Origin: a virus
Virus record (IMG/VR): IMGVR_UViG_3300043410_001892
Coordinates: 247,145 to 311,144 of that record
Strand: one strand, 5' to 3'
DNA: 64,000 nt
A model generated the notes under the pieces. The model searched no databases. It saw only the letters and a program-made list of their open reading frames with translations, and was not told the DNA's origin. The position numbers were made by a program, and so were the translations under genes. Positions 2,515 through 39,283 of the stretch are shown here, piece by piece (the first letter of the stretch is position 1; the number at the start of each line of letters is the position of its first letter).

Positions 2515-3267
2515 CTACGCTAAGTTGGATTTAAGTAATTTTGAAATAGCTTGTACTTCAATATTTACCACACCTAATACACCTAAAGCAGCCCATCCAA
2601 AGAATACAAACCCGTAGTGTAATGGTGCTACGAATAGTTCTTCCATGAACCAGAAAGTGTGTCCCCATTCGTTTAATCCAACGTTTGGAAGAATCATAAA
2701 TGGCCCGATTACAGATACCATGTATTGTAATGGTAAGCCTTTTTGGTAGGTAGGCAAGCGTGTTTTAGCATATAAGAATGCTGCGACACCTGTGATGATG
2801 TAGATAGGATAACTTAGATAAAACTCAATAACATGACTTGGTGTAAAATCAGTATCACGGACAATCGTTTGATGCCATGTACCATCTTGTTCTGTAAAGT
2901 ATGAAGCACCGTAATAAATTGCAATACCATACATTACTAACCAAACCCAGTGTGTAAAATGTCGACGCAGTTCCTCGCGAGGTGTAATTGACATTACGTT
3001 GCGATCACGTGATTTCCAAAGATAACCCCATAATACAGAAGCGGTTAGGATTTCAAGAACCATTTCAATGTATAGGAAGTTCATCCAATATGTTTCAAAC
3101 TCTGGTGCAAATGAGTCTAAACCAGCAGACCATCCATAAACACCTTCATACCAACGGACCCACCCGTAAAATACAACGTACAACGCTGCACCTGCGAGCA
3201 TGTTTGTTTTGTTTAAAAGTGAAGCTTCTTTAGCTTCAGCTTTTACTGTTTCAATTGTAGCTGACAT
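2515..3267 (-). CDS. pmoC: Particulate methane/ammonia monooxygenase subunit C
   Basis: 250-residue polytopic membrane protein of the PmoC/AmoC family, a subunit of the copper enzyme that oxidises methane to methanol (or ammonia) in the host's intracytoplasmic membranes. The family's metal-binding triad is intact: Asp128 and His132 in QDGTWHQTIVRDTDF and His145 in TPSHVIEFYLSYP. Other conserved blocks are FETYWMNFLYIEMVLE and GPFMILPNVGLNEWGHTFW. The start at 3265-3267 has AGGAG 7 bases upstream; the upstream in-frame ATG has none. It stands alone, without pmoA or pmoB, with its own strong promoter, about 115-base leader and terminator, as expected for an auxiliary metabolic gene. Sequence alone does not separate methane from ammonia oxidation; methane is favoured by known pmoC-phages. 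Confidence 0.95.
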   Translation of the reverse strand: MSATIETVKAEAKEASLLNKTNMLAGAALYVVFYGWVRWYEGVYGWSAGLDSFAPEFETYWMNFLYIEMVLEILTASVLWGYLWKSRDRNVMSITPREELRRHFTHWVWLVMYGIAIYYGASYFTEQDGTWHQTIVRDTDFTPSHVIEFYLSYPIYIITGVAAFLYAKTRLPTYQKGLPLQYMVSVIGPFMILPNVGLNEWGHTFWFMEELFVAPLHYGFVFFGWAALGVLGVVNIEVQAISKLLKSNLA

Positions 3268-3390
3268 GTTGTTTCTCCTAAGCAAGGGAAAATAAAAACG
3301 AAGTGCAACACCCGTTACACTTCAACTCGAGTTAAAACTATTTATAATAAACTGAGTATTTTACTCTGTAAATATTATAAATTGTGTTAC

Positions 3391-3435: not shown

Positions 3436-3609
3436 CTATCTTGGTGGGAAATCTTGCGGTGGAAGTGGATGTCCTTCATGTTTGTGATGTCTGGTATAAT
3501 GATGTTCTAAATTACCAGGTCTAATATAATCACGGTGGACAGGCTTTGAATCGCAGCCTGTCATTAAAAATACTGCAAATAGCAAACTAACGACTAGTAA
3601 CAATTTCAT
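3436..3609 (-). CDS. Small lipoprotein, histidine-rich
   Basis: 57 residues: lipoprotein signal MKLLLVVSLLFAVFLMTGC (lipobox LMTGC), then a short His/Pro-rich tail (HHYTRHHKHEGH) that could bind metal. Starting at 3609 gives a canonical signal peptide and a 23-base overlap with the end of clpP. Possibly an outer-membrane lysis or exclusion lipoprotein; function unknown. Confidence 0.6.
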   Translation of the reverse strand: MKLLLVVSLLFAVFLMTGCDSKPVHRDYIRPGNLEHHYTRHHKHEGHPLPPQDFPPR

Positions 3610-4168
3610 CGACAAGCCCATACATAACACTCTCTTCAGCACTCATAAAACAATCACGACTCATGTCTTGTTTAAGTTTTTCAAACGATTGTCCAGTGTT
3701 TTTTACATACACTTCAGTTAAATAAGTATTCAACTTTAATGTTTCTTCAAGTGCAATTTGCATGTCAATTGCAGTACCGCGTGTACCTGAACTAACTTGA
3801 TGAATCATGTGTCTTGCGCTTGGAAGAATTTTACGTTTACCTTTAGCACCTGAACTAGCAAGTAAACTGCCCATACTACATGCTTGACCCATAACAATAG
3901 TAGAAACATCTGGTTTGATAAAGTTCATTGTATCGTAAATTGCAAGTCCTGCAGTAACTGAACCACCTGGGCTATTGATAAAGAAGTGGATATCTTCGGT
4001 ACCTTGACTTTCTAAGAACAGTAACTGGGCAACAATAATACTTGAAGATTGTTCGTTAACATCTGTATCTAACATAATAATCCTATCTTTGAGCAATCGC
4101 GAATAAATGTCATAACTGCGTTCGCCTTTTGCTTCTTGTTCTACGACCATTGGGATTAAACTTGGCAT
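3587..4168 (-). CDS. clpP: ATP-dependent Clp protease proteolytic subunit
   Basis: 193 residues, full length for ClpP. The Ser-His-Asp triad is visible as Ser98 (GQACSMGS), His123 (MIHQ) and Asp172 (SRDCFMSAEE), with the N-terminal axial-loop region ERSYDIYSRLLKDRI. ClpP forms the tetradecameric chamber that degrades substrates fed by ClpA/ClpX. AGGAG sits 5 bases before the ATG. A clpS gene is found at 39 kb, so the phage may redirect host Clp proteolysis. ClpP-like head maturation proteases exist, but this one looks like a genuine ClpP. Confidence 0.95.
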   Translation of the reverse strand: MPSLIPMVVEQEAKGERSYDIYSRLLKDRIIMLDTDVNEQSSSIIVAQLLFLESQGTEDIHFFINSPGGSVTAGLAIYDTMNFIKPDVSTIVMGQACSMGSLLASSGAKGKRKILPSARHMIHQVSSGTRGTAIDMQIALEETLKLNTYLTEVYVKNTGQSFEKLKQDMSRDCFMSAEESVMYGLVDEIVTSR

Positions 4169-13877: not shown

Positions 13878-13880
13878 TTT

Positions 13881-14699: not shown

Positions 14700-14734
14700 A
14701 TAAATCTTTTAACTACTTATTTATCTTCGTTATT

Positions 14735-14811: not shown

Positions 14812-14822
14812 TTAATAAATAT

Positions 14823-14970: not shown

Positions 14971-14975
14971 GTAAC

Positions 14976-15050: not shown

Positions 15051-15061
15051 AAATTATATTA

Positions 15062-15152
15062 AAACACACTACTACACGGAATCGAACCGTATCACTGACT
15101 CCGCGCCAGCTAGTGTTCCACACCCACGTTGATCAAACGCTGTAATGTGTTT
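15062..15152 (-). ncRNA. Y-RNA-like element 4
   Basis: End stem AAACACA/TGTGTTT, motif TTACAGC, then hairpins CGTT/AACG and GTGT/ACAC and a T-arm-like TACGG-TTCGATT-CCGTG. No D-arm follows, so it is a divergent or partial tRNA-mimic member; a degenerate tRNA is the alternative. Confidence 0.5.
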
Positions 15153-15170
15153 AAATATAACAACTTTAAC

Positions 15171-15255
15171 AGAATAGCTTGCTCAACCATTGAGCTTTAT
15201 CGCTAAGATAGCAATAATGGAATCGAACCATTAAATAATTTGCTGTGACTATTCT
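15171..15255 (-). ncRNA. Y-RNA-like element 5, tRNA-mimic type
   Basis: End stem AGAATAG/CTATTCT, motif TCACAGC, then T-arm AATGG-TTCGATT-CCATT, closed acceptor TATTGCT/AGCGATA joined by a 5-base linker at 15205-15209, then D-arm GCTC-AATGGTT-GAGC. T-arm before D-arm with a closed acceptor is the inside-out tRNA order of YrlA RNAs. The anticodon-side stem is shortest here. Confidence 0.7.
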
Positions 15256-15264
15256 TTATTAAAC

Positions 15265-15320
15265 AGGATAGAATTTATTTCAGATTAAGAGTCCAATTTA
15301 AATTATGCTGTTACTATCCT
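15265..15320 (-). ncRNA. Y-RNA-like element 6 (minimal)
   Basis: End stem AGGATAG/CTATCCT, motif TAACAGC, apical hairpin TTGGA-CTCTTAA-TCTGA, which resembles a Lys(CUU) anticodon arm. No D- or T-arm. 56 bases. Confidence 0.65.
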
Positions 15321-15324
15321 AAAC

Positions 15325-15398
15325 TGGCAGTCCCTGCAGGTATCGAACCTACGCTAGCAGAATCAAAATCTGCTGTGCTACCATTACACCAAGGAACA
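15325..15398 (-). tRNA. tRNA-Gln(UUG)
   Basis: Anticodon loop TTTTGAT between GCAGA and TCTGC (UUG), T-arm GTAGG-TTCGATA-CCTGC, encoded CCA; the acceptor has one mismatch at the first pair. Confidence 0.9.
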
Positions 15399-15405
15399 CT
15401 AATAT

Positions 15406-15491
15406 TGGTGGTTGCTGTTAGATTCGAACTAACGAAGCACTAAGGCGACAGATTTACAGTCTGCTGGTTTTAACCACTCACCCAAACAACC
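15406..15491 (-). tRNA. tRNA-Tyr(GUA)
   Basis: Type II tRNA with acceptor GGTTGTT/AGCAACC, anticodon loop CTGTAAA (GUA), long variable arm, T-arm GTTAG-TTCGAAT-CTAAC, encoded CCA. Confidence 0.93.
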
Positions 15492-15502
15492 ATGTTCTTT
15501 AT

Positions 15503-15736
15503 TTATACAAGTTCTTGATCGTTATGTGCAGTTTCGACTAAGTCTAATACACCTAACTTTCTCAAACGTTTTTCTAAAACTTTCAATCTATTTCTAATCT
15601 TAGATTTGTCACGTGGACGACCTGTTTTTTCAAGTAACTCTTTAACTTGTGCTAAGTTTAAAGGTTTAAGTCTTGGGCGACCGTTACGTGTTAGTTTAGG
15701 ATTAGCTGTTCTGTTTGCTTTACTAATTGTAGACAT
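15503..15736 (-). CDS. Small basic protein
   Basis: 77 residues, Arg/Lys-rich (NGRPRLKPLNLAQVKELLEK, KSKIRNRLKVLEKRLRKLG) with a likely helix-turn-helix-sized helical core. It overlaps the end of the gene at 15723 by 14 bases. Possibly a nucleic-acid-binding protein; no family recognised. Confidence 0.6.
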   Translation of the reverse strand: MSTISKANRTANPKLTRNGRPRLKPLNLAQVKELLEKTGRPRDKSKIRNRLKVLEKRLRKLGVLDLVETAHNDQELV

Positions 15737-16088
15737 GTTTTTCCTTTACTTTATTAATCATAGTGGTTAGCTGTTCATTAGTAAAATGATCAGGAACATT
15801 TATATGAAAAATGTTTCTGCCATCTTGTTTTTCAACTTGAACAATATCCTTAGTTTCTTCTACATCAATGTTTTCTACAAGTTCAATTGAAGTTGTATTT
15901 GACATTATAACTAAGTTTGCAGGTTCTACATGTTTAGCAAACGTAGTCTTAATATTTTCCATATATTCCATAGCATGTCTTGCTGGCATATTACCTACAT
16001 CAACTTTAACTATTAGAATACTGTTTTCAGTTAGTTTTTGCTTATCTAAAATCTGTATTGAATTTTCACTTAATTCTATTGTTTGCAT
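15723..16088 (-). CDS. Unknown protein
   Basis: 121 residues, soluble, alternating beta strands (SILIVKVDVGN, NLVIMSNTTSIELV) and helices with a NMPARHAMEYMENIK segment. It starts the unit driven by the promoter at 16117-16144. No family recognised. Confidence 0.6.
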   Translation of the reverse strand: MQTIELSENSIQILDKQKLTENSILIVKVDVGNMPARHAMEYMENIKTTFAKHVEPANLVIMSNTTSIELVENIDVEETKDIVQVEKQDGRNIFHINVPDHFTNEQLTTMINKVKEKHVYN

Positions 16089-16116
16089 ATTTGCCTTTGT
16101 TATTTAGTATGTGTAT

Positions 16117-16144
16117 ATTATACACGTTTAAAACTAGTTGTCAA
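16117..16144 (-). promoter_or_regulatory. Consensus sigma70 promoter
   Basis: Minus strand: TTGACA, 16 bases, TATAAT, within the 3' end of the small gene at 16134-16298. Confidence 0.75.
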
Positions 16145-16298
16145 GTAAATAATTTTTGTATTCTTGTTTAATTAAATCTTCAATAGCAGCACTTACATCA
16201 ATACCATTTGGATTATTCATATCTTCTTTTGCTTCTTGAGTGACATTTGTTTCAAAAAACTTATCACGCCATTCTGCATAATCTAACTTATTTGCCAT
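16134..16298 (-). CDS. Small acidic protein
   Basis: 54 residues (MANKLDYAEWRDKFFETN..., ending KNYLLDN). Its start overlaps the end of the gene at 16288 by 11 bases, which supports coupled translation. Function unknown. Confidence 0.55.
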   Translation of the reverse strand: MANKLDYAEWRDKFFETNVTQEAKEDMNNPNGIDVSAAIEDLIKQEYKNYLLDN

Positions 16299-16431
16299 GT
16301 TTCTTAAAATCCTTAACTAAATGTTTAAGAATGTCGTGCTCAAGATTGATATGTGCAGTAATATTTTTAGTAGGTTCAAATGTCCATTTACCGTTTAACT
16401 TACGAGGTTTTTTTGGTAATTTAGTTTTCAT
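16288..16431 (-). CDS. Small basic protein
   Basis: 47 residues, MKTKLPKKPRKLNGKWTFE at the N-terminus, Lys-rich. It lies 3 bases after the stop of the gene at 16435 and overlaps the next. Function unknown. Confidence 0.55.
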   Translation of the reverse strand: MKTKLPKKPRKLNGKWTFEPTKNITAHINLEHDILKHLVKDFKKHGK

Positions 16432-16434
16432 TCT

Positions 16435-16617
16435 TTATCCTTTGTTTTTAAATTCTGCTGCAACATCGTCAATTGTTGCGTGATTGCCATGTGAATTAGA
16501 AATAAATTCTTCTTTTGGTTCTTCTTTTTCTTTTTTATTAAATATCTTATCCCAGTTTTCATCAAACTGTGATTTGCTAATGCCTAATGGGCGCATTCTA
16601 CTACCTTTGCCTGCCAT
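16435..16617 (-). CDS. Small charged protein
   Basis: 60 residues, MAGKGSRMRPLGISKSQFDENWDKIF then a Lys/Glu-rich stretch. The N-terminal block recalls short phage proteins of unknown function with 'GKGSxxRP'. AAGGAG lies 6 bases before the ATG. Confidence 0.65.
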   Translation of the reverse strand: MAGKGSRMRPLGISKSQFDENWDKIFNKKEKEEPKEEFISNSHGNHATIDDVAAEFKNKG

Positions 16618-16639
16618 AAAATCTCCTTAACGTATAGAT

Positions 16640-16840
16640 TTAACCCCATGTTAAACCTACAAGCATTGAATGTTTAGGATCTTTAAACTGCATCCTAACC
16701 TCTCCTTGAAAACAATGCCATTTGTAATCTTGATTATGTATCCAACCTTTTTCTCTACACCATTTTGATATTTCTAATCCTTTAGCAAAATTACCTGGTA
16801 TTGTTACATATCCATTTTCGTGTGCGTAATCTGTATTCAT
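16640..16840 (-). CDS. Small protein of the aromatic-tail paralogue family
   Basis: 66 residues ending EVRMQFKDPKHSMLVGLTWG, the same C-terminal pattern as the tandem genes at 26952-28046. The N-terminal part is a short helix (GLEISKWCREKGW). No strong ribosome site. Function unknown. Confidence 0.55.
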   Translation of the reverse strand: MNTDYAHENGYVTIPGNFAKGLEISKWCREKGWIHNQDYKWHCFQGEVRMQFKDPKHSMLVGLTWG

Positions 16841-16863
16841 ATTTTTATTTGTAAGGTTGTTGC

Positions 16864-16926
16864 AGGATGGGATTGAGCTTTTTTAGATCCAAATTCTAAC
16901 GCTTAATTGTTTGCAGTTACCATCCT
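16864..16926 (-). ncRNA. Y-RNA-like element 7 (minimal)
   Basis: End stem AGGATGG/CCATCCT, motif TAACTGC, apical hairpin TTAGA-ATTTGGA-TCTAA (5 bp, 7-base loop, anticodon-arm-like). Preceded by AAGTTTT as in most copies. Confidence 0.7.
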
Positions 16927-16940
16927 AAAACTTGTTTATC

Positions 16941-17066
16941 AGAATGCATTTTAATTTTCCAGCGCGTCTACTACTTTCGCCATATGCGTTATTCAACGCA
17001 TAGTAGGATTTGCACCTACACGTTATAAAACACTGGATTCCATTAAAAGTATGCAGTTAGCATTCT
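16941..17066 (-). ncRNA. Y-RNA-like element 8, tRNA(Leu)-mimic type
   Basis: End stem AGAATGC/GCATTCT, motif TAACTGC, TTTTAAT/ATTAAAA helix, then CTGGA/TCCAG (anticodon-stem position), Leu-like long variable segment, T-arm GTAGG-TGCAAAT-CCTAC, closed acceptor TATGCGT/ACGCATA with a 6-base linker (16990-16995), and a Leu-type D-arm GCG-AAAGTAGTAGA-CGC. A circularly permuted type II tRNA shape on the family stem. Confidence 0.75.
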
Positions 17067-17070
17067 ATTT

Positions 17071-17146
17071 TGGTTGCGAAGGGTTGGAATCGAACCAACG
17101 TCCTCTGGGTTATGAGCCCAGCTATCTACCACTGATATACCTCGCA
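17071..17146 (-). tRNA. tRNA-Met(CAU), initiator-like
   Basis: Anticodon arm CTGGG-CTCATAA-CCCAG has the GGG:CCC pairs typical of initiator tRNA, and the 3' end CGCAACCA equals that of fMet tRNA. The 1-72 position is a weak T-A rather than the usual C-A mismatch. T-arm GTTGG-TTCGATT-CCAAC, encoded CCA. Confidence 0.88.
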
Positions 17147-22073: not shown

Positions 22074-22426
22074 TTTAATCTTCCTATTAGTGTGTACATC
22101 CAACGTGGAAATACAGGTTCGTTACAAAAAGCATCACAACTTTCTAATCCTGCAGGTGGATCAGGAAGTTCATATAGTGATTTTAATGGAGGTGGAGGAT
22201 TAAATCCAGTCATTCCGTTTTGATTGCGATATTGCGGTTTGTGTGGTGGAAGAGGAGGGGACATCGTCTTAAACGGATGCCCGTCAACAATACGTTTCAT
22301 AGCATCACGGTGTTCCATCAATGCTATGCGTGTTTCACCGTGATCTATATACATTATTTCATATCTCAACTTTTCTAATGTTGAATTGATATAATCGTAT
22401 GATTCTTGTGTTAAGTTTTGATTCAT
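22070..22426 (-). CDS. Unknown proline-rich protein
   Basis: 118 residues. Helical N-terminus (YDYINSTLEKLRYEIMYIDH), Pro-rich middle (MSPPLPPHKPQYR, FNPPPPLKSLYELPDPP) and a C-terminal CDAFCNEPVFPRWMYTLIGR. Overlaps the macro-domain and NAMPT genes by 4 bases, so coupled with NAD metabolism. No family recognised. Confidence 0.55.
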   Translation of the reverse strand: MNQNLTQESYDYINSTLEKLRYEIMYIDHGETRIALMEHRDAMKRIVDGHPFKTMSPPLPPHKPQYRNQNGMTGFNPPPPLKSLYELPDPPAGLESCDAFCNEPVFPRWMYTLIGRLK

Positions 22427-23733
22427 AGTCCACCTAATGCGCGTAATCGAATAGTATCTAAACTATCATCAATCAACAGCTTACCATTGTGATAATATGT
22501 TTCTAATTGGTATTCTTCAAATCTACCACCTTGTGATTTTTTACCTGGATCAGTAACTGGATTTTTAACAGTATCAATCCATTCATCATTGATTTTCATT
22601 GCAGAAGTTTTCTGTGCAAATGAATAAGTATCACGATTCACTTTTTGTAATAAACCACCACCACTGCCATATACAAGTGTTTCAGCTGCATAGCCAAGTT
22701 CTTTAACCATGTGTGCTAATGCTTTCATAGATGCAGTATCAATACCATCACCTTGAATTAAACTAACATTGTTAAGCACTTTGTAGCCTTTAGAGTTTAC
22801 AGTATGTCCAAACCAGTAATCAATAACATTAAGTAATTTTGGTATTACTACTAATGGATTACCTGAGTCTGGTCGGATAACAACTTTAATACCACTTTGT
22901 TTAATAATGTGTACAAAGTGTGAACACAATGCTTCAGTATCGCGATAAATGTCATAACCATCAAGTACAATTGAAACTATATCACCTTTTGCCATATCGT
23001 GTAGAATAGATGAAATATATTCCATTTGTTTATCATTGCCATAAGAGCATTGAACGCTGTGTTCAGTAGCAGGAATTGAGTAACCTGGCATTTTACAATT
23101 ATAATACTTACGGCTAGCAGCAATTGATGCTAAGTTGTCAGTACCTCTAAAGTAAATTAAGTGAGCTAATCCACCCATCTCTGCAGTCTCATATGAGCTT
23201 ACACCGCGAGCGCCAAAGTCATGTAATGCAAATTGTAAGTTTGCTAGGTTATCAGAAGTTTCATCGTACACTTCTTTAAGTATTGCATAGTTCTCACGAT
23301 CATTTGAAGCAATAGTACTTGGATACCAAACATCACGTTGCAACCATGATTCAATGTAAGATGGCAACCAGTACAACTCTGGATCGTTTGATTCAACTGT
23401 AAGAATTGGAGTTTGTGATGGAGTAGGTGTGCCTTCTAGCACTGCTTTAATAGTAACAGGCAAGTAACCACCGTGTACATCATGAATTCTCTCCCATCCT
23501 GCGTAATTAAATGGTAATCCATGTTCAGTAAGAATCTGTTCTGCTTCAATAACATCTTCCCATTTAATTGGTTTTAGCAGATTCTTTTTAATTGCCATCT
23601 GCAAGCCAAATGGTACGATTGTTTTACCTGGCTTTCTTGCTGACAAGTAAGCAAATTGAGCAGAAGTACCAGCTGGGTACCATGCATAGTGACTGGCTTT
23701 GTAAGAGTCGGCATTAAGAATAATATTAGACAT
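22423..23733 (-). CDS. nadV: Nicotinamide phosphoribosyltransferase
   Basis: 436 residues of the NAMPT/NadV family, converting nicotinamide and PRPP to NMN. Signatures: DSYKASHY, LHDFGARGVSSYETAEMGG, GYSIPATEHSV, VIRPDSGNPL and LVYGSGGGLLQKVNRDTYSF. With the next gene it forms a two-step route from nicotinamide to NAD, the arrangement used by phages to rebuild NAD after NADase-type defences. Confidence 0.96.
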   Translation of the reverse strand: MSNIILNADSYKASHYAWYPAGTSAQFAYLSARKPGKTIVPFGLQMAIKKNLLKPIKWEDVIEAEQILTEHGLPFNYAGWERIHDVHGGYLPVTIKAVLEGTPTPSQTPILTVESNDPELYWLPSYIESWLQRDVWYPSTIASNDRENYAILKEVYDETSDNLANLQFALHDFGARGVSSYETAEMGGLAHLIYFRGTDNLASIAASRKYYNCKMPGYSIPATEHSVQCSYGNDKQMEYISSILHDMAKGDIVSIVLDGYDIYRDTEALCSHFVHIIKQSGIKVVIRPDSGNPLVVIPKLLNVIDYWFGHTVNSKGYKVLNNVSLIQGDGIDTASMKALAHMVKELGYAAETLVYGSGGGLLQKVNRDTYSFAQKTSAMKINDEWIDTVKNPVTDPGKKSQGGRFEEYQLETYYHNGKLLIDDSLDTIRLRALGGL

Positions 23734-23743
23734 TGTTACCTCG

Positions 23744-24685
23744 TTATTTCAAATTAAATTTTATCTTAGCAAATGTATTAGTCATTGAGCTAATAATATC
23801 TCTATGATCATGGAACATATCTAAGTCGTTAAGTACAGTAGTTAATGGAAACCATTGTGCATCAATTGCATCGTCATTGGCTACTGTTTGCATAGGTTCA
23901 TCAACTACAAACATTTTACAGTATGTAACTCTAAGAATACCACCGCTGTCTCGACGTACTGAATCAAACAACTGAGTCTTGTATGCTATGCTACTGACAG
24001 TAATACCTGTTTCTTCTAGTAGTTCGCGATCAGCGCATTGATCAAATGTTTCATTAGCATTCTTAAATCCGCCTGGCAATGCCCATTTGTTTTTACCTGG
24101 AGCAGTTTTTCTTTTAATTAGTAAAACTTGATTGTCATTAGTTATTACTAATGCATCACTACAACAAAATGTAAGTGTTTCTGGAAACGGATAACTTGCA
24201 AACATCTGTTTCTCGTTTTTAAAATAGTTGTAGTCTTCTTGTGCTAGTTCAGGTAATTGATTATTTTCTGCTAGTTCAGTTCTAATTTGTGTACCTGAAA
24301 TAGTTGAAACTGGATCAACTTCTATGTATTCAAATCCTTGAAACCAAGACAAGTATAAGTTATCTGGTTTAGTATGTCCATATAAGCAAACGTCGTGATC
24401 TTCTGAATGCATACGAATAATATAACATGTTTGCGATATCCATTTGTTATCATTATACAAGTAGTCGTTAAGTGGTTCCACAATAACATTAGGAAACTTC
24501 TGTTTAACATTGTCATGTCGTTCTGCATAGGACCATGGATTCTTAATAGTATTTGATTGATTAGCTGAACCAATTAAAACTAATTGTTTATCAGTATTTT
24601 TAATCATAGTCTGTATGATTAGTTCGTGTCCTTCATGCATTGGTTGTAATCTACCAATAAAAACACCTAATTTAGGTTTTATCAT
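23744..24685 (-). CDS. nadM: Bifunctional NMN adenylyltransferase / Nudix hydrolase
   Basis: 313 residues. N-terminal nucleotidyltransferase: FIGRLQPMHEGH (HxGH-type site), NPWSYAER and SGTQIRTEL (ISxxx[T/S]xxR-type motif). C-terminal Nudix box: GGFKNANETFDQ then RELLEETGI (G-x5-E-x7-REUxEExGU complete). It makes NAD from NMN and ATP, while the Nudix part probably hydrolyses ADP-ribose or NADH. Ten bases upstream of nadV in the same operon. Confidence 0.95.
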   Translation of the reverse strand: MIKPKLGVFIGRLQPMHEGHELIIQTMIKNTDKQLVLIGSANQSNTIKNPWSYAERHDNVKQKFPNVIVEPLNDYLYNDNKWISQTCYIIRMHSEDHDVCLYGHTKPDNLYLSWFQGFEYIEVDPVSTISGTQIRTELAENNQLPELAQEDYNYFKNEKQMFASYPFPETLTFCCSDALVITNDNQVLLIKRKTAPGKNKWALPGGFKNANETFDQCADRELLEETGITVSSIAYKTQLFDSVRRDSGGILRVTYCKMFVVDEPMQTVANDDAIDAQWFPLTTVLNDLDMFHDHRDIISSMTNTFAKIKFNLK

Positions 24686-26472: not shown

Positions 26473-26493
26473 AAATCCTCCTAACGTATGTTA

Positions 26494-26519
26494 TGAAAAA
26501 GCACCCCGGAGGGTGCTTA
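26494..26519 (-). terminator. Intrinsic terminator of the tmRNA gene
   Basis: Minus strand: GCACCC-TCCG-GGGTGC hairpin followed by T5. Confidence 0.8.
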
Positions 26520-26915
26520 GTTGTATTTTGGTTAACAAGGCATACATGCCCCGGAGGGGTAGGTTATTAAGCTACCATGTCAGCTGCTTCCAAAGAGAAG
26601 TCAACTGTCATATACTCGAATTTAGATGCTTTTGCGTCTATAAGTTTTGCGCTGTTTAGGACAGTCACCTCACCTGTTGCCGTCTCCATTATCTCACCCA
26701 ATCGAAACCATGACAGCCCCATTATAAAACACACTAGCACTTCCCTTTTAGGGGGCAGGAAGTTTATGGCTATGGCCCCACTCTAATACCTCTAATGTGT
26801 TTTATGGTGGAACTGGGGGGAGTCGAACCCCCGTCTTGAATGCCTTCACTTTGAAGGAATTACAACAATAATAAGAACACTAATAAATCTAATGTTCTTA
26901 TTATTATTTAGTATG
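26520..26915 (-). ncRNA. ssrA: Circularly permuted tmRNA (ssrA) with a 27-residue tag
   Basis: Reading the minus strand from the promoter: a 12-bp AATAATAAGAAC hairpin; the tRNA-like 3' end GACGGGGGTTCGACTCCCCC then CAGTTCCACCA (about 26831-26805); an 80-base linker closed by TAAAACACA/TGTGTTTTA; then the tmRNA 5' end GGGGCTGTCATGGTTTCGAT from about 26720. The acceptor GGGGCTG/CAGTTCC joins the two pieces. The tag frame starts at GCA (26648-26650) and reads AKLIDAKASKFEY...ADMVA, ending in TAA TAA (stop 26567-26569). The order 3' piece, linker, 5' piece is that of two-piece tmRNAs. It rescues stalled ribosomes and tags their products for proteolysis. Confidence 0.9.
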
Positions 26916-26920
26916 TGTAC

Positions 26921-26948
26921 ATTATACACTAATAAAACAGTTTGTCAA
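26921..26948 (-). promoter_or_regulatory. Promoter of the tmRNA gene
   Basis: Minus strand: TTGACA, 16 bases, TATAAT. Nearly the same 40 bases occur at the groES promoter. Confidence 0.8.
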
Positions 26949-26951: not shown

Positions 26952-27191
26952 CTAATTACTCCATTTTAACATAAACCAATTTTTGTATTTCTCTTCAGCA
27001 AAATAAATTGCATGTACAATTTGGCACCGATATGCATGATAAGGTTCCAGTGCGTCGTCGATATCCTTTGCTGAAAGGTGTACACAATTATCACCGTGTT
27101 GGTATCGAAGATCATTAATAAAATTGCGCCATGTAGTAGGACATTCGTCCCACCAATCACCAAGATCTAGTTTATATTCAGTTGGATTCAT
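26952..27191 (-). CDS. Small protein, aromatic-tail paralogue family (array member 5)
   Basis: 79 residues, Trp-rich, ending IYFAEEKYKNWFMLKWSN. GGAGG before the ATG. Last of five tandem genes of similar size and C-terminal pattern. Function unknown. Confidence 0.65.
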   Translation of the reverse strand: MNPTEYKLDLGDWWDECPTTWRNFINDLRYQHGDNCVHLSAKDIDDALEPYHAYRCQIVHAIYFAEEKYKNWFMLKWSN

Positions 27192-27201
27192 GTTACCTCC
27201 G

Positions 27202-27408
27202 TTAAATGCTTAATATGAACCAGGCTAAATCTTTTTCAGATTCAAATATTATGTGGCCAAAACCTACATTCATGTTAAAATCACCGTTAAACTTATCTTT
27301 AACAAATTTCTTTGATTCAGGGAGTGTTACAAGGTTTTCGTGTAAGTAATCCTTGCCTGCTACTGCAATATATTGCCATTGTTCAAATGTTAGCTTATGT
27401 TCTATCAA
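27202..27408 (-). CDS. Small protein, aromatic-tail paralogue family (array member 4)
   Basis: 68 residues ending IIFESEKDLAWFILSI. The start appears to be TTG at 27406-27408, which overlaps the stop of the upstream gene (TTGA) and has AAGGAG 5 bases before it. Function unknown. Confidence 0.55.
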   Translation of the reverse strand: MIEHKLTFEQWQYIAVAGKDYLHENLVTLPESKKFVKDKFNGDFNMNVGFGHIIFESEKDLAWFILSI

Positions 27409-27629
27409 TATATCTCCTTTGCCCAAAGCAAATTAAATACAAAGTAATCATCATTATCCATTTCCCAATGACCGGATTGTTCAAAACTTGTTTGCTTGGT
27501 TATAACAAATTTTGCTGATTTAAACCCTTGCTGTCTCATAAATTCGTCACACAGCAGTTCTTTATTTGAAGTCATGTACCATAGTTCAAAAAACTCAGGA
27601 TAATTATCATATAAATCTTCTATTATCAT
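27405..27629 (-). CDS. Small protein, aromatic-tail paralogue family (array member 3)
   Basis: 74 residues, MIIEDLYDNYPEFFELWYM at the N-terminus, ending DDYFVFNLLWAKEIY. Coupled with the next gene. Function unknown. Confidence 0.6.
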   Translation of the reverse strand: MIIEDLYDNYPEFFELWYMTSNKELLCDEFMRQQGFKSAKFVITKQTSFEQSGHWEMDNDDYFVFNLLWAKEIY

Positions 27630-27630
27630 T

Positions 27631-27819
27631 TTATCCGCCCCATCTCATAACAAACCAAAATCGATCTTCTTCATCTCTAAACTGAACAGTATACTCTAAC
27701 ATGAACCATCTGCTATTTATTAGCCCAGCAGATGGTCCAAATGTTTCATTACACCATTCTAAGATTTCAGACTTACTCTGACGATGCGGAAGAATCGCTG
27801 AATATCTAAGTCCAGACAT
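27631..27819 (-). CDS. Small protein, aromatic-tail paralogue family (array member 2)
   Basis: 62 residues; a KSEILEWCNETFG helix, then FMLEYTVQFRDEEDRFWFVMRW, the clearest form of the family ending. Function unknown. Confidence 0.6.
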   Translation of the reverse strand: MSGLRYSAILPHRQSKSEILEWCNETFGPSAGLINSRWFMLEYTVQFRDEEDRFWFVMRWGG

Positions 27820-27821
27820 TG

Positions 27822-28046
27822 TTATGCAGAAAAGTATTTAATTTGGAACAATAAGAATGCCTTTTCGTCAAGTACATCGTAATCCATAATGTAATAACCA
27901 TCTGAATTTTTTATCATTTTAAAACCGTATTTGTCTTCTAACCATTGTGGGAAGTCCATATCGTTTACTTGATCAGAAGCTAAAAATTCTTCACGTGAAT
28001 CACGTAAACTATTACGATAAACTTCAGTTGAAACTGTTAGTGCCAT
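27822..28046 (-). CDS. Small protein, aromatic-tail paralogue family (array member 1)
   Basis: 74 residues; DMDFPQWLEDKYGFKMIK then YIMDYDVLDEKAFLLFQIKYF. AAGGAG before the ATG. First gene behind the promoter at 28084-28112. Function unknown. Confidence 0.6.
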   Translation of the reverse strand: MALTVSTEVYRNSLRDSREEFLASDQVNDMDFPQWLEDKYGFKMIKNSDGYYIMDYDVLDEKAFLLFQIKYFSA

Positions 28047-30005: not shown

Positions 30006-32051
30006 TTATTTTTCCGTAGCTATCCATTCTCCATTCCAGTTATCACCTAAATCTTGTTGTTTCATAAAGTCACAACGTTCAATCCATATTTTGTAGTATT
30101 TGTCCATTTGTCCACCAAAGGTGCCTTTCATAGTTTTACACATTGCAGCAGCTTCATCAAACTTCTTTTGTTTATATAAGTCGTGCATGAGGTTGTGTAA
30201 GTCTTTATCTTTACTATAATCAGCACCTTTGGTGCGTAATGCAGTATAGATTAAGTCTGCAACTGTTTTACCTTTTGGTTGTAAGTTATCTAACAGTAAG
30301 TAAAAGAAATCGTCTTTAGTTCTGTTATATGTTTCAGCACCAATGATACATAGTACACCGTATGCTTTACAACGTGCTTCTAAACGAGCAGCAGTTGAAA
30401 CCATATCACCTAAGATATCATAGCTGTGTCTATCACTAGAACCCATTTCGCCAATGAAGCCTATTCCGCTATTACACCCCCAGCCCATAGCTGCGGGTGG
30501 TAACCCTTTGGCTTCCATAATCTTAGTATATGTATCGACTGCGTCTAGCATTTCTAAGCCAACTTTAACAATAGTACGAGCATGATTTCCATCATCAATT
30601 GGAGCACCGTGAATATGCATTGATGCATCTCCTACGTACTTAATAACCATACCTTGACTATCCATAATAGGTTTACTAATACTATCCATATATCCGTTCA
30701 TGTATAGACCTAGACCTGCAACATCATCGCCAAAGTGTTCACCAATTGGAGTAAATCCGCGCAAATCTGAGAACATAACTGAAACATCTTTACGTACACC
30801 TTGTTTAATTAAGTCTGGATTTTCTTGTAGCATTTCAACTACTTTTGGAGAGCAGTAGCCAGCAAATTGTTTTTTAATAGCTAGTTTTTGAGTTAGTTCA
30901 TCCACAAACTTAACAGTATAAGCATGAGCATAAACAAGAGTAAATCCAGATACAACAAATGTTGCATCCAAAAGAATATTATAAGTGGTGAAAGCATAAC
31001 TAAAAGCATAAGGTATACCACCAATGAAAGCAATAATAGGAACAAAGCCGTATCTCCATCTTGTTAAAAATATAGATCCAATTGCAAGTACAATAAAACC
31101 TAATAGTTCAGCACCGTCTGCATAATCAGGTCGTACAATATTAGTACCGGATACTAATGTGTCTAAAACCGCACCTTGAACTTGATGCGGAAACTGTTCT
31201 CCTCTAGCAGTTGCAACTGGGTTATTGAGTCCCCTTGCAGTAAGTCCGACAATGACGATCTTTCCGCCAAAGAATTCTGGGAGATCAGTGATTGGAAAAC
31301 TTTCAGGTTGGTGGGACCAGTCAATCCAAACTCTACTATAGGGGTCTGTTGCAATTTTTCCAAACTTAGGTATTCTGACAGCTTCGACTCCAATGTCTGA
31401 GATTTTAACTTGGAAACTTGGATCTCCACTTGCGACTCTAAGTGTGTCCAGTCCAAGGCTTGGATAGAGTTTTCCTTTTGATGAAATAACCATTGGCATT
31501 CTTCGCACGACGCCATCAAGTTCTGGGAAAGTGTTAACAATACCAGCACCAGCAATAACATCATTAAGTTCTTTAGTATTTGCTTGTATGTTTTCATAAT
31601 TTACAGTAAAAGGTTGATCTTCGTTACCGATTACACTAACGCCTGGACGAAATGCAATAGTATCTGATTTTATAGGTTCGTTAGTTCCAGTTTGCGGTAA
31701 GATTACAGGAACTGTTGTCATAAGTTTAGCTAAGACTGGGTCTTTTTTAAATCTATCAGCATCTGGCATAAAGATGTTGAATACAACTAAGCCAGCACCT
31801 CTTGAATACAACTCTTCAATTATTTGAGCATATATATCACGTGAGAATGGGAATTGACCATACTTCTCTAATGCAGCATCGTCGATGTTTACTGTAGCAA
31901 CAGATGATTCTTGTATAGGTTTACTTGTAATAAGTGTATCAAAGTATCTTAATCTCATACTTTCTACAAATGATGGATCTGCAATTCTTATAGCTGCAAC
32001 TAGCATAAGAGTTAAAAGAGCAGTCCATGGGTTTAATAATATTTTCTTCAT
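30006..32051 (-). CDS. CHASE2-domain class III adenylate cyclase
   Basis: 681 residues: signal anchor (residues 8-24), large extracytoplasmic CHASE2 sensor (about 30-320), three more membrane spans (325-390) and a cytoplasmic cyclase domain (about 420-600). Metal aspartates are in MFSDLRGFT and YVGDAS; IKYVGD supplies the adenine-specific lysine. In the final motif GDMVSTAARLE the usual transition-state Asn is Ser while the Arg is kept, so activity may be reduced. Start at 32051 overlaps the stop of the upstream curlin gene (TAATG). It is the last gene of the curli operon; FecR-CHASE2-cyclase sets occur in bacteria. Confidence 0.88.
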   Translation of the reverse strand: MKKILLNPWTALLTLMLVAAIRIADPSFVESMRLRYFDTLITSKPIQESSVATVNIDDAALEKYGQFPFSRDIYAQIIEELYSRGAGLVVFNIFMPDADRFKKDPVLAKLMTTVPVILPQTGTNEPIKSDTIAFRPGVSVIGNEDQPFTVNYENIQANTKELNDVIAGAGIVNTFPELDGVVRRMPMVISSKGKLYPSLGLDTLRVASGDPSFQVKISDIGVEAVRIPKFGKIATDPYSRVWIDWSHQPESFPITDLPEFFGGKIVIVGLTARGLNNPVATARGEQFPHQVQGAVLDTLVSGTNIVRPDYADGAELLGFIVLAIGSIFLTRWRYGFVPIIAFIGGIPYAFSYAFTTYNILLDATFVVSGFTLVYAHAYTVKFVDELTQKLAIKKQFAGYCSPKVVEMLQENPDLIKQGVRKDVSVMFSDLRGFTPIGEHFGDDVAGLGLYMNGYMDSISKPIMDSQGMVIKYVGDASMHIHGAPIDDGNHARTIVKVGLEMLDAVDTYTKIMEAKGLPPAAMGWGCNSGIGFIGEMGSSDRHSYDILGDMVSTAARLEARCKAYGVLCIIGAETYNRTKDDFFYLLLDNLQPKGKTVADLIYTALRTKGADYSKDKDLHNLMHDLYKQKKFDEAAAMCKTMKGTFGGQMDKYYKIWIERCDFMKQQDLGDNWNGEWIATEK

Positions 32052-32674
32052 TATTGTCCTTGTTGTACTGATATTGGTGCGCATCCGCCTGCAGTAGCGC
32101 AGTTAGAGTTTATAGAATAAATTTGTTGAGTAGCACCGCTTTGTCTTAGGTTTAAACTAGCAGGCTGTCCAGATAGAATAACTTCAGACATATGAGGTGC
32201 TGCTCCTTCTTGTATAATACTAACATTCTTATTACCACCTGAAAGATTAACTGTTGCATAATGATTACCTTCATCAGTTTGGTGAATGCTAAGTAAGTTA
32301 TTATCATCAGCTACTGTAGCAAATATACCTTTCCCAAAGCTAGTAGCTGTAGTTGTAGTTTGTTCAAGATCTATAGTATTAGTGTTACCAGTTGTTGATA
32401 AATCAACAAAATTAGTTTGCAAATCGTTAGTTCCAATTTGATTGATTGTTACACTATTACTACTACCCACACCTGTATAGTTAGTGTAGTTATTTTTTGT
32501 ACCAATTTGTTCAACGGTAATTGTATTATCATTACCAGATTGCATAATAGTTGATTGATTATCAGAAGTTGGTCTTGACACAAACGTCATTACTTTAGCA
32601 ACATCTGCAGGGTTTGCAGGCGGTAATGCATAACTTACTGAGGTTGCTAATAATAAAAGAAACATAAATCTCAT
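32051..32674 (-). CDS. Curlin-repeat protein (minor subunit-like)
   Basis: 207 residues. Signal peptide MRFMFLLLLATSVSYA, then imperfect curlin repeats with the N-x-x-x-x-x-Q-x-G/T spacing: NDNTITVEQIGTKNNYTN, SNSVTINQIGTNDLQTN, TNTIDLEQT, NLLSIHQTDEGN, NVSIIQEG, SLNLRQSG. Such repeats form the beta-helical amyloid of CsgA/CsgB. Overlaps neighbours on both sides. Nucleator or major subunit cannot be told apart. Confidence 0.8.
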   Translation of the reverse strand: MRFMFLLLLATSVSYALPPANPADVAKVMTFVSRPTSDNQSTIMQSGNDNTITVEQIGTKNNYTNYTGVGSSNSVTINQIGTNDLQTNFVDLSTTGNTNTIDLEQTTTTATSFGKGIFATVADDNNLLSIHQTDEGNHYATVNLSGGNKNVSIIQEGAAPHMSEVILSGQPASLNLRQSGATQQIYSINSNCATAGGCAPISVQQGQ

Positions 32675-33753
32675 TTGTGTAATACTCCGTTAGTTTGTGT
32701 AATATTTACTGTATTGCCGCCAAACCCTCCTTGACCTATAAGAGCCGATGACAGTGTGTTATCTTGTGTCACTGATACTGTAGTGTTTGAATTATATCCT
32801 TGTGTTTTAACTTCTGAATAATGATTCATAGGTGAAATTCTGTAAGCAATTGCTTTACCCTTTTGTTCACCTTCTCCATCCGGATTTTCCCACATTAGGC
32901 AAACAGTAGTAATTGGATTACATCCATTATCAAATTTAAAGTTTAATATTGCTCGAATATGTGCGTCCATTGTTTCTTGAGTCTTTGATACTTGATTTGC
33001 TAACCTACGCGTAGCTTCTTCTTCAACTTCTTCCTGTTCTTTATCCCATTTAGTTTTAGCTGCTTCTTTAACAGCTTTTGTAAGTTCAGGAGGTTTAAGT
33101 AGAATCAACGTATTGTTGATCTTTGATTCAAGTACACTAACAATAGTTGGAGGACTAGGCATAACAGTACGACTTTGAACATACGTTGCATGGAATGCTT
33201 GATCTAATACTACTTTACCTGCTTCATTCTCAACTTCAATTTGTCCTGACTTGCATTGATTTTCTTCAAGTTCGTATTCTTTAACTTGCTTGTCATCTTT
33301 GCAACTTGGTAACAGTACAATTAAAGATTGACCAGCTTCGTCAACTGTCATGGAAAAGTCAGTACCTCTAACTGCAATAGTAGCAGTAGGAGTTTGAATA
33401 CCAACTTGTTGTGGATTAGCTTTAGCTATCTGCCCACTTGCATAACGTACAGTTCCCATACCAACTTTTAATGCAAGTTTACCTGCATCAGATTGCTTTG
33501 GATCGTAAACAAAGTCATCTATAACTAATCGACTATTTTCTGTTACTTTAACTTTTGTATCGTCTTTGAATATTAAATTGCTAACGCAACTACCAGTAGA
33601 ATACGCATCCATACTTTCTATTGATGCGCCTTTATCACCAGTAAGTTTTTCTTTATTACGTTCAATATTACACGCAGTTCCTTTGGCATCAGATACTGAA
33701 CCAATACCTGCGTGTACATTTGTAACTAAAAGAAAAAATAGTAAGATCCACAT
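32671..33753 (-). CDS. FecR-domain secreted protein with curlin-like C-terminus
   Basis: 360 residues. Signal peptide MWILLFFLLVTNVHA. Residues 20-150 form a FecR-type beta domain (IFKDDTKVKVTENSRLVIDDF, TPTATIAVRGTDFSM). Middle region 230-265 is helical and charged. The last 40 residues contain two curlin-like repeats (NSNTTVSVTQDN, GGNTVNITQTNG). The fusion suggests it is attached to, or senses, the amyloid, perhaps passing a signal to the CHASE2 cyclase two genes downstream. Confidence 0.8.
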   Translation of the reverse strand: MWILLFFLLVTNVHAGIGSVSDAKGTACNIERNKEKLTGDKGASIESMDAYSTGSCVSNLIFKDDTKVKVTENSRLVIDDFVYDPKQSDAGKLALKVGMGTVRYASGQIAKANPQQVGIQTPTATIAVRGTDFSMTVDEAGQSLIVLLPSCKDDKQVKEYELEENQCKSGQIEVENEAGKVVLDQAFHATYVQSRTVMPSPPTIVSVLESKINNTLILLKPPELTKAVKEAAKTKWDKEQEEVEEEATRRLANQVSKTQETMDAHIRAILNFKFDNGCNPITTVCLMWENPDGEGEQKGKAIAYRISPMNHYSEVKTQGYNSNTTVSVTQDNTLSSALIGQGGFGGNTVNITQTNGVLHK

Positions 33754-34532
33754 TATCTTGCAACAGCTGATTTTTCGCCTACTATACCTAATGTTGCATC
33801 ATTAGTTGAATGTACAGTAATTGTATTGTTATTACCGGTAGTATTGATATCAATCATAGAATCATTAGACCCTTGTTGCTGTGTAACAATTGAGTTAAAG
33901 TCACCAGTGATTAGTTGTGTAAGTTGATGTCCAATACCGCCATTATCTTGTTCGTTTATAAAAGAGTTAAAGTTACCATTTGCGGTAGTAGTATCAATTC
34001 CATTCATACTATTTAATCTTGTAGTAATTTGGTTAGACGAACCAGTTATCGCAATTGTACTATGTATATTATCTTTAGTTAGTGATTGAATAATAAAGTT
34101 TGTATCTCCACTAACTGTTTCATTTACTATGTTAGTAGATGACGGAGTTCCTGTAACACCAATAGTAAGTAACGTTTGATTTTGCATTCCTGTTATCAGT
34201 GATGAGTAAATGTTATTGTTACCATTGATGTTATATTGTGCCCAGTTCCCGTCGCCTGTTTGATTAAGAGTTACTTGGTTAGTATTTCCTGTAATCGTTG
34301 CATAATTCGTTGTGGCTGCAGCACTTGGTACAAACGAAGTAATAATGTTGTTAGCACCGTAAGATATAGGAGAAACAAGTGTTGTGCCACCAACATTATT
34401 AGTTCCGCCAATCTGATCAATAATAATTGTGTTTGTATTACCAAGTTGTTCAATGTATACATTATTAGTTCCTGTTGGTCCAGCTGCAAGTACAGAATTA
34501 CTGAGTAGGAGTAGAACTAATAACTGTTTCAT
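33753..34532 (-). CDS. Curlin-repeat protein (major subunit-like)
   Basis: 259 residues. Signal peptide MKQLLVLLLLSNSVLAAG. Many curlin-type repeats: NNVYIEQLGNTNTIIIDQIG, NTNQVTLNQTGDGNWAQYN, NFIIQSLTKDN, NSIVTQQQGSNDSMIDIN, NTITVHSTNDA. The start at 34532 has AGGAG upstream and lies inside the 3' end of csgG. Likely the main secreted amyloid subunit. Confidence 0.82.
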   Translation of the reverse strand: MKQLLVLLLLSNSVLAAGPTGTNNVYIEQLGNTNTIIIDQIGGTNNVGGTTLVSPISYGANNIITSFVPSAAATTNYATITGNTNQVTLNQTGDGNWAQYNINGNNNIYSSLITGMQNQTLLTIGVTGTPSSTNIVNETVSGDTNFIIQSLTKDNIHSTIAITGSSNQITTRLNSMNGIDTTTANGNFNSFINEQDNGGIGHQLTQLITGDFNSIVTQQQGSNDSMIDINTTGNNNTITVHSTNDATLGIVGEKSAVAR

Positions 34533-35355
34533 TGCTGGTCTCCTTAGATTGTTCTTTAAAAGACCAATGTCCTTTTCTCGCTCCTTCTTTAATAGTTTCA
34601 AGCACTGCAGCTTGAATTGCCTTATTAGTTGCCTTATTAATACTTTCATTAATACTTCCACCTATTTCTGTTTCTAACATCTTTGTGTCAGAAGAGAACA
34701 TTCTTAATACACCTACTTTATCCATATAACTTAGAACAGTTTTTGTTACTACTACCGATGTTAAAATTTCACCAGAAGTAACAGAAACTACTCTCAAGCT
34801 AACTGTAACTGTATCGCTTTGGTATTGCGTTTCACCCCCAATACCAAAGATCCTAACACCAGCACCTCCTGTGACTGTGTTAGAGTCGTACCCAACAATT
34901 GCACCTTCTGCAATAATACCAGCAAAAGTCATAGCAGGTAACGGTGTTGCAGCATCCTTTCCTTGGAACTGCTCGCGGGTTTGACGAATCATTTGCCGCT
35001 CTTTAATTAGATTATCTAATCCAACTCTTTCTAGTACTATAAACCATCGATTATTACCTACTTCTTTTAATGCTTTAATTAAGTAATTTTCTGCACCTTG
35101 GGTAACAGCTGAACTTAAACTAGCAATATTTGGAACTGATTTACGTTGCCCAGTTTTATCATTAAATCCGTATACTGCAATTGGTATAGGACCAGTAGTA
35201 GGCGGTGCAAGTAAGTTTTCTTCTTTTTTCATAAAAGGAGTATCATCAATAATTGGATCATCAAATTGTTCACCTGTTATGAATTTTTCAATTGTGCTAG
35301 TAGTAGCGCATCCGTAAAGTAATATGGTTGTTATTAGTATGAGTAGTTTTTTCAT
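34498..35355 (-). CDS. csgG: CsgG curli secretion pore lipoprotein
   Basis: 285 residues. Lipobox LYGCAT after a short signal (Cys16). CsgG family blocks: IPIAVYGFNDKTGQRKSVPN, VTQGAENYLIKALKEVG, WFIVLERVGLDNLIKERQMI, IIAEGAIVGYDSNTVTGGAG and YQSDTVTVSLRVVSVTSGEI. CsgG forms the nonameric outer-membrane channel of type VIII secretion. Nine bases after csgF-like. Confidence 0.95.
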   Translation of the reverse strand: MKKLLILITTILLYGCATTSTIEKFITGEQFDDPIIDDTPFMKKEENLLAPPTTGPIPIAVYGFNDKTGQRKSVPNIASLSSAVTQGAENYLIKALKEVGNNRWFIVLERVGLDNLIKERQMIRQTREQFQGKDAATPLPAMTFAGIIAEGAIVGYDSNTVTGGAGVRIFGIGGETQYQSDTVTVSLRVVSVTSGEILTSVVVTKTVLSYMDKVGVLRMFSSDTKMLETEIGGSINESINKATNKAIQAAVLETIKEGARKGHWSFKEQSKETSNETVISSTPTQ

Positions 35356-37736: not shown

Positions 37737-38414
37737 TTACATTTCAGGAAATAGACATTCGTGTACGAATAATTTAACATCTTCGTCACTTAGTCCAAGT
37801 GCAGCCATTACTCGAGGGGTGTGCGGTATTTGTTTTTGTTGTATAGCATAAAAGTTTTGTGCTTGCACCGTGCTTTTAACTGTGTTATTTGTACGCGCAA
37901 CGTTTGAAACATAGTAGTTGCTTGTTGTTTGTACAATGCTATTTATTTGTGTAATTTCATCTTGTTTTTGAATATTACTTGCTGCAATTATATGTGGGGA
38001 AAATATATCCTTCCCCCACTCAGGAATTTCTCGAACCTTTTCCCAAGTAAGTTTGTTTACTTCTTGGCTAAAAAAATCTATCATTGGATGATCAACATCA
38101 CCTGCAGGACTGTAATCATGAAAGAATCCAGTAATCTTATTACGTCCTGCAACAATGTCGCAACCAAAGATAGGAGCCGGGTTATGAATGTGAGGAAAAA
38201 TACAGCAATGCATCATCCATAACCCGTTACCATCTGAAGCATCTACTACATTAAGATGCGCTCTACGATATGCATTGCTAGTCCAAACTCTGTTGATCCA
38301 GCCATTATAGTTAAATCGTTCTAAGCCAGGTTCTTCAATTTCAGTACCTGACTGATTAAACAATTCTTCTAAATGATGCTGGACTTTAATTAGTTGTGTC
38401 TTTAGCTCAGTCAT
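37737..38414 (-). CDS. Ferredoxin-dependent bilin reductase (PcyA/PebS/PcyX family)
   Basis: 225 residues. Family core: RRAHLNVVDASDGNGLWMMH, CCIFPHIHNPAPIFGCDIVAG, NKITGFFHDYSP and VDHPMIDFF. These enzymes reduce biliverdin to phycobilins using ferredoxin. It overlaps the heme oxygenase gene that would supply biliverdin. Phage versions include PebS and PcyX; PcyX occurs in phages thought not to infect cyanobacteria, which would fit this host. The exact product (phycocyanobilin or phycoerythrobilin) cannot be read from motifs alone. Confidence 0.9.
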   Translation of the reverse strand: MTELKTQLIKVQHHLEELFNQSGTEIEEPGLERFNYNGWINRVWTSNAYRRAHLNVVDASDGNGLWMMHCCIFPHIHNPAPIFGCDIVAGRNKITGFFHDYSPAGDVDHPMIDFFSQEVNKLTWEKVREIPEWGKDIFSPHIIAASNIQKQDEITQINSIVQTTSNYYVSNVARTNNTVKSTVQAQNFYAIQQKQIPHTPRVMAALGLSDEDVKLFVHECLFPEM

Positions 38415-38964
38415 TGACTAATGGAATCGAAATTGAATCGTGTAGTTCATCAAACAATCTTGCGGCAAATTCAAAACACACGTTTGCTTCATCTGCCATA
38501 TCATCGTTTAGCTTTTCTCTAATGGTAGCTTTAAGCTCACTGGCATTTTCAAATTTGTAATAGTTTCCTTGTCCTGGAACTTTTTGTGCAATCATTTGAC
38601 CACCATACAAATCTCCCATGTGTCTAACATACAAGTGCGCCATTAGTTTTTCTTTATCTTCGCGTATTGTAACTAAATGCTCTTTATATGCAGTAGTCAC
38701 TGGCAATTCAACAGGTGGAGCATCTCCCTTAGGCCATAGTTCATAAAAATCTTCGTGTATACGCGGAGCACGTCTAATATTAGGAAGATCGTTTAACAGT
38801 CCAGCCATTGTTGCATGTGTTTCTAGCATGTCGTACATTTGAAATTGATTATACAAATATGTTGCATATAGAGTTGGATTGATCTCTCCTGCAAAAATCA
38901 TTTTAACAAATGGCTTTGATTCAACTAGATCGTGTGATGCTTTAGTTAGTTCTTTTAAACTCAT
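38407..38964 (-). CDS. ho1: Heme oxygenase
   Basis: 185 residues. Motifs: LTKASHDLVESKPFVKMIFAG (proximal His), YLYNQFQMYDMLETHA, AHLYVRHMGDLYGGQMIAQK (distal helix with GDLYGG) and YKFENASELKATIREKLND. Cleaves heme to biliverdin, CO and iron. The start at 38964 has GGAG upstream; the longer reading frame overlaps clpS and is rejected. Stop overlaps the bilin reductase start. Confidence 0.95.
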   Translation of the reverse strand: MSLKELTKASHDLVESKPFVKMIFAGEINPTLYATYLYNQFQMYDMLETHATMAGLLNDLPNIRRAPRIHEDFYELWPKGDAPPVELPVTTAYKEHLVTIREDKEKLMAHLYVRHMGDLYGGQMIAQKVPGQGNYYKFENASELKATIREKLNDDMADEANVCFEFAARLFDELHDSISIPLVND

Positions 38965-38980: not shown

Positions 38981-39283
38981 TTATTCTTCTTCAAGTTTAA
39001 GTTGTAATGGGAAACCCGACGCCCTTGCAAGTGCAGTTGCTTCGACTGTTTTTATTTCTGCAATTTCAAAATTGTAAACACCTGCTACTGCAGAACCAGT
39101 TTCATGAATTTGCATAGTAATAATACCTGCAGAATTTGGGTCATGTTTAAAGATCTCCATTAGCATTGATACAACAAAATCAACCGGAGTAACATCATCG
39201 TTAAGAACGATTACTTTCCAACGTTTTGGTTCTGGTACTTGTATCTTTACTTTTTCGTCTACAGCAATATCTGTACTTGTCAT
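38981..39283 (-). CDS. clpS: ClpS adaptor
   Basis: 100 residues, matching ClpS: PKRWKVIVLNDDVTPVDFVV (NDD and N-degron pocket), HETGSAVAGVYNFEIAEIKT and ARASGFPLQLKLEEE. ClpS delivers N-degron substrates to ClpA. Together with phage clpP and the tmRNA it suggests control of host ClpAP targeting. Confidence 0.95.
   Translation of the reverse strand: MTSTDIAVDEKVKIQVPEPKRWKVIVLNDDVTPVDFVVSMLMEIFKHDPNSAGIITMQIHETGSAVAGVYNFEIAEIKTVEATALARASGFPLQLKLEEE

Follow-up and report, generated by a model that had tools for sequence, protein, structure and literature searches.

We identified a complete, circularly permuted tmRNA gene in a jumbo phage, represented by a 372,173-base virus record that carries pmoC. 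Very probably, the gene gives a functional two-piece tmRNA, and the interior of the spacer between its two pieces is a modular slot, non-coding in this copy and often holding a small gene in related phages. The window analyzed here is a 64,000-nucleotide stretch of that record, and all positions refer to it.

The gene lies on the minus strand at approximately 26911-26485 (Table 1). Rfam covariance models recognized it as tmRNA_permuted (RF04321; 116.6 bits, E = 4e-22, span 26867-26567) and as beta_tmRNA (RF01850; 113.5 bits, E = 9e-34, span 26918-26494); the gathering cut-off of RF01850 is 84 bits, and the gene exceeds it as the top scorer in its clan. Independently of Rfam, ARAGORN called a permuted tmRNA with two stops at the same locus. 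The permuted phage tmRNA that a sequence-only reading had proposed is thereby confirmed, as is its order of transcription: the acceptor piece (...GGGGGTTCGACTCCCCCCAGTTCCACCA, 3' end at 26805) comes ahead of the coding piece, which opens with GGGGCTG at 26720. That reading had likened the gene to the alphaproteobacterial and cyanobacterial types; the two-piece architecture holds, but the nearest Rfam type is betaproteobacterial. The acceptor stem carries G3.U70 and discriminator A73, which give it alanine identity (read from the sequence and the RF04321 alignment), and the whole transcript folds far more stably than its shuffled versions (z = -5.1).

Table 1. Positions of the tmRNA gene parts and of the protein genes discussed with them
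Feature	Position	Strand	Evidence
PmoC, host-inference marker	2515..3285	-	PF04896, 404 bits; 84-92% identity to listed Methylococcales PmoC
ClpP peptidase	3587..4168	-	PF00574, 241.7 bits; NF001368 (subfamily) above cut-off
Intrinsic terminator-like hairpin (26499-26518) and U tract, 3' of tmRNA	26485..26518	-	Fold; tail from sequence
Tag frame AKASKFEYMTVDFSLEAADMVA, then TAATAA	26564..26635	-	ARAGORN coding part 263-334
Coding piece: 5' tRNA-like half GGGGCTG...GGTTTCGAT, resume region, tag	26564..26720	-	ARAGORN, Rfam
Intervening segment (spacer), 84 nt: long closing stem, non-coding interior	26721..26804	-	Fold; comparison with relatives
Acceptor (3') piece, T arm, encoded CCA at end	26805..26867	-	RF04321 and RF01850 alignments, ARAGORN
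Precursor leader hairpin	26865..26907	-	Transcript fold
Sigma-70 promoter TTGACA-16-TATAAT	26921..26948	-	12/12 consensus positions
ClpS adaptor	38981..39283	-	PF02617, 91.3 bits, over Pfam cut-off

The window tag has 22 codons (26635-26570), beginning at a GCA resume codon and followed by tandem stops. The tandem stops had been read correctly from the sequence; the length of 27 residues given with them was too great because it had been counted from a start five codons ahead of the conserved resume codon. Tags of the phage relatives are mostly 22 to 31 residues long, some only 10, and several of the long ones consist of an N-terminal extension followed by a full, ordinary-looking tag (e.g., ANADTFDFSAMSFTGNTVRGA followed by ANESRFALAA). 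Most relatives end in ALAA, others in AIAA, MVA, or LVA, and the MVA ending of the window tag looks like a natural variant of the ordinary ALAA degron. Synonymous changes are in excess in the C-terminal part of the tags (p = 0.003); the extension, considered as a selected peptide, reached only p = 0.06 and was not accepted as such.

By its PmoC, the record belongs with the freshwater methanotroph pmoC phages described in a paper whose text does not mention tmRNA (PMC7674155), and Methylococcales, as judged from PmoC alone, are the likely host. Given this host, the tmRNA is not of host type, as had been suspected from the sequence, because one-piece tmRNA exceeds the cut-off in 19 of 20 Methylococcales genomes and permuted tmRNA in none of the 20. 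The tag of these likely hosts is ANDENYSMALAA or a close variant, and the phage gene is not of their unpermuted type (RF00023). Permuted tmRNA was found, at a strict threshold, in only 1 of 369 sampled Gammaproteobacteria genomes.

Among viral records sharing clpS, RF04321 exceeds its cut-off in 21 of 48, including every such record of at least 345 kb; the window tmRNA is therefore no assembly accident. A DNA pattern for the coding piece matched 89 stretches, and a further pattern, aimed at the acceptor region, yielded none. The T loops of relatives L207 and L211-L213 depart from TTCGA (they resemble GGCGGTA, a form also seen in the bacterial L311), and for these Rfam favors the alpha model. 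Other structured RNAs lie near two of the permuted tmRNAs: a GOLLD RNA about 1 kb away in the cultured Xanthomonas phage XacN1 (L218, 3667-4080) and a Polynucleobacter-1 RNA about 1.3 kb away in L212 (41-187).

Several other minus-strand genes of the window deserve mention. Upstream of the tmRNA runs a row of five small proteins of 62 to 79 residues (26952-28046) that by eye resemble diverged paralogues. A NAMPT-type phosphoribosyltransferase adjoins a cytidylyltransferase-like/Nudix protein (22423-24685), and this NAD salvage pair may rebuild NAD depleted by host defense. A gene resembling those for ferredoxin-dependent bilin reductases lies beside a heme oxygenase gene (37737-39030), and the two would cover the heme-to-bilin steps in this methanotroph phage; curli-related genes (CsgG, curlin repeats, FecR-like) are found together with a CHASE2-guanylate/adenylate cyclase (30006-35355). 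Eleven tRNAs are clustered with a PTH2 peptidyl-tRNA hydrolase (11750-17146), and a short class II tRNA-synthetase core, a weak match, lies within this cluster (13881-14537). Finally, a DUF2828/DUF7788 protein (8752-10161) may have a vWA or Ro60-like RNA-binding fold.

The spacer ranges from 25 to 223 nt in the phages and measures 4 nt in the bacterial permuted genes with a readable spacer (n = 2). In the window, its ends pair over 13 to 14 bp (z = -2.8), which bears out the pairing linker seen in the sequence-only reading. Compared across phages, the two ends of the spacer lengthen the acceptor stem by pairing at 10.8 of 12 positions (46 distinct arm pairs); shuffling the partners of the arms gives 7.4 ± 0.27 of 12. 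The stem covaries, with many different pair types at each position among approximately 57 distinct phage spacers. This is strong evidence, of a comparative kind, that the spacer ends form a processing stem.

The interior of the spacer behaves differently. The window type, shared with L206, L211-L213, and L216, is non-coding, and the window's own spacer has no combination of Shine-Dalgarno motif, ATG, and open frame. It contains a candidate H-type pseudoknot (GGGGC/ACUUCCU/GCCCC/GGGAAGU); strong candidates occur only in window-type spacers (z of -1.2 to -2.1), and pseudoknots as a general spacer feature were discarded, showing no enrichment over shuffles. The idea that the window spacer contains a known riboswitch or ribozyme was likewise discarded after an Rfam search up to E = 10 gave no credible match. 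The spacers of L200 and L204 contain a sequence resembling a tRNA T arm. Interiors and surroundings have separate histories in several comparisons. Between the window and L211, the spacers are 94% identical and the surrounding parts 58 to 70%; the spacers of L306 and L235 are identical next to tag frames that are 70% identical; and, conversely, L194 and L195 have tag frames that are 97% identical around spacers at 42%. Judging by these identities, the spacer interior is swapped among otherwise different tmRNAs, and it can be regarded as a modular slot because constraint falls only on the closing stem.

In relatives, this slot often appears to hold a protein gene. A Shine-Dalgarno-like motif with an ATG 7 to 18 nt past the CCA occurs in 21 of 57 distinct spacers (2.6 ± 1.6 in shuffles), and all 21 frames stay open to the spacer end or to within 13 nt of it; most stop one base ahead of the coding piece, and a few continue into it. 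Such openness has a combined chance probability of 2.5e-6 (dinucleotide model, one representative per family). Many of the predicted products are 19 to 41 residues long and strongly hydrophobic. Three microprotein families (MNDDL..., MKTYEF..., and ...TYDWTKF...) also exist in other phages as free-standing genes beside the acceptor piece, where they usually end 27 to 29 nt ahead of the tRNA-like segment, and one such inside/outside pair differs by 13/7/19 changes at the three codon positions. Coding status was decided from the open frames and from homologues located elsewhere than in the spacer, and not by dN/dS, for which pairwise values were mixed and mostly underpowered (two of five families nominally significant). 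Ribosome-binding site, start, open frame, and homologues elsewhere are thus all found in relatives, and small protein genes in permuted tmRNA spacers are, on these signatures, a feature of the relatives and not of the window copy. In openly licensed papers, we found no prior report of protein genes in a tmRNA spacer.

The phage also encodes proteolytic partners. Both clpP and clpS, named in the sequence-only reading, were verified (Table 1), and the connection to Clp is stronger than could be known from the window because the record also encodes, beyond it, a ClpA-like unfoldase of 759 residues (best model TIGR02639 at 848.8 bits, which is below its curated cut-off of 993). All eight tmRNA-phage records of at least 171 kb that were tested from the viral contigs encode a ClpA-like protein, and none was found in the tested fragments of 166 kb and smaller or in XacN1; ClpP relatives are present in three of the tmRNA records closest to the window (L201, L209, and L216). 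ClpS is an N-end-rule adaptor, and ssrA recognition does not need it. Tagged proteins may be redirected through the phage Clp proteins, as the sequence-only reading had suggested, although most tags of the relatives carry the ordinary ALAA degron. No SmpB was found in the 372,173-base record, which is possibly incomplete, and the phage tmRNA must therefore rely on host SmpB, which in a host with one-piece tmRNA would have to accept a permuted partner. So, as predicted from its genes, the phage would bring the RNA that does the tagging and the larger part of one protease, and hence much of a tag-and-degrade chain. Few phages have a tmRNA, and the company of a non-host tmRNA with ClpA-like, ClpP, and ClpS proteins makes phage-controlled ribosome rescue and proteolysis testable.

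From the anatomy of the gene, we infer ribosome rescue and degron function for the window tmRNA, with processing, trans-translation, tag fate, and the role of the spacer along the following lines. Host RNA polymerase would make a single precursor of about 427 nt from the consensus promoter. In this precursor, the acceptor and coding halves would fold into the tRNA-like domain, and pairing of the spacer ends would lengthen the acceptor stem considerably, in the manner of a pre-tRNA trailer and leader. Host tRNA-processing enzymes, with RNase P cutting at the coding piece and 3' maturation acting at the CCA, would then remove the spacer to leave a two-piece tmRNA, which, with host SmpB and alanyl-tRNA synthetase, would rescue stalled ribosomes and add the 22-residue tag, most likely a Clp degron and possibly one for the phage's own ClpA-like protein and ClpP. 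In the relatives, translation of the microprotein could come first, while the 3' arm of the stem has yet to be transcribed, with folding and cleavage of the precursor to follow. Speaking against the model are the lack of a phage SmpB, the MVA ending of the tag in place of ALAA, and the altered T loops of some relatives (L207 and L211).

Two observations suggest coupled expression: the reading frames fit the spacer exactly, and the Shine-Dalgarno motif of coding spacers sits inside the upstream (5') arm of the closing stem. We put forward, tentatively, that in this lineage of large phages the permuted spacer may serve as an expression cassette, in which one transcript would give a non-host rescue RNA and, out of the segment removed later, either a structured RNA or a membrane microprotein, translation and maturation would be mutually exclusive or ordered in time by the placement of the Shine-Dalgarno motif, and the phage ClpA-like, ClpP, and ClpS proteins would complete the chain. 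The contents could, quite possibly, instead be meaningless for the tmRNA, being small genes in a tolerated gap that are exchanged only by homologous recombination at conserved flanks. Tolerance of very different spacers and the occurrence of the same microprotein families beside the tmRNA agree with such a gap, although the exact fit of the frames, the motif within the stem arm, and the 88 to 95% identity of window-type interiors next to diverged flanks speak against it. The spacer, usually dismissed as processing waste, turns out to be a modular locus able to hold small membrane-protein genes; this would be a new mode of nesting genes in a non-coding RNA gene, with a set of microproteins that gene finders overlook.

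It is improbable that the RNA is a decoy that titrates host SmpB or blocks host trans-translation, as proposed for DS6A. Inhibition of that type was reported for a tag-less mycobacteriophage tmRNA (PMC4131195, PMC11915505), and the missing SmpB would suit it, but in the relatives called by ARAGORN the tag frame still has its resume codon and its stop, the C-terminal part of the tag is under selection, and the tRNA-like domain keeps its alanine identity. A passive relic recently acquired from a betaproteobacterium-like host, which the nearest Rfam type might evoke, is hardly credible against diverged copies across large related phages, a strong promoter, and a covarying stem.

A two-piece tmRNA in a phage has precedents. 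Of the 133 unique phage structures in one tmRNA survey, 53 were two-piece, mostly aquatic; that work also described the Methylophilales phage Melnitz, whose tmRNA is of non-host type, with a riboswitch reported within the 3' domain of its gene (PMC9004378). Melnitz and the pelagimyophages of that survey resemble our phage as aquatic phages with a permuted tmRNA of non-host type and curli genes; however, their tmRNA is of the alphaproteobacterial type, spacer small genes are undescribed for them, and our record, unlike that comparison, also has ClpA-like, ClpP, and ClpS genes. With the bacterial betaproteobacterial two-piece tmRNA (RF01850), the window gene shares the order of pieces, the tRNA-like domain, and a score above the gathering threshold, whereas the bacterial form has a 4-nt spacer (two genes) and a 12-residue tag against 84 nt and 22 residues here. 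XacN1 and the cultured Pseudomonas phage PA_L9, whose permuted tmRNAs are unannotated in their records, share the beta type, a long spacer, and gammaproteobacterial hosts; they differ in their 12-residue tags and lack of a spacer-type ORF, and XacN1 also in its lack of a ClpA match. The 2025 tmRNA database, with 79 unique phage sequences, lists one spacer with a tRNA gene and one with a repeat, and these, like a group I intron that interrupts the T loop, are extra precursor sequence that is removed, as the spacer would be here; it makes no mention of small protein genes filling a permuted spacer (PMC11915505). The window tmRNA joins a known kind as a new member, and what sets it apart is the modular spacer, often gene-bearing in its relatives, and the company of ClpA-like, ClpP, and ClpS proteins.
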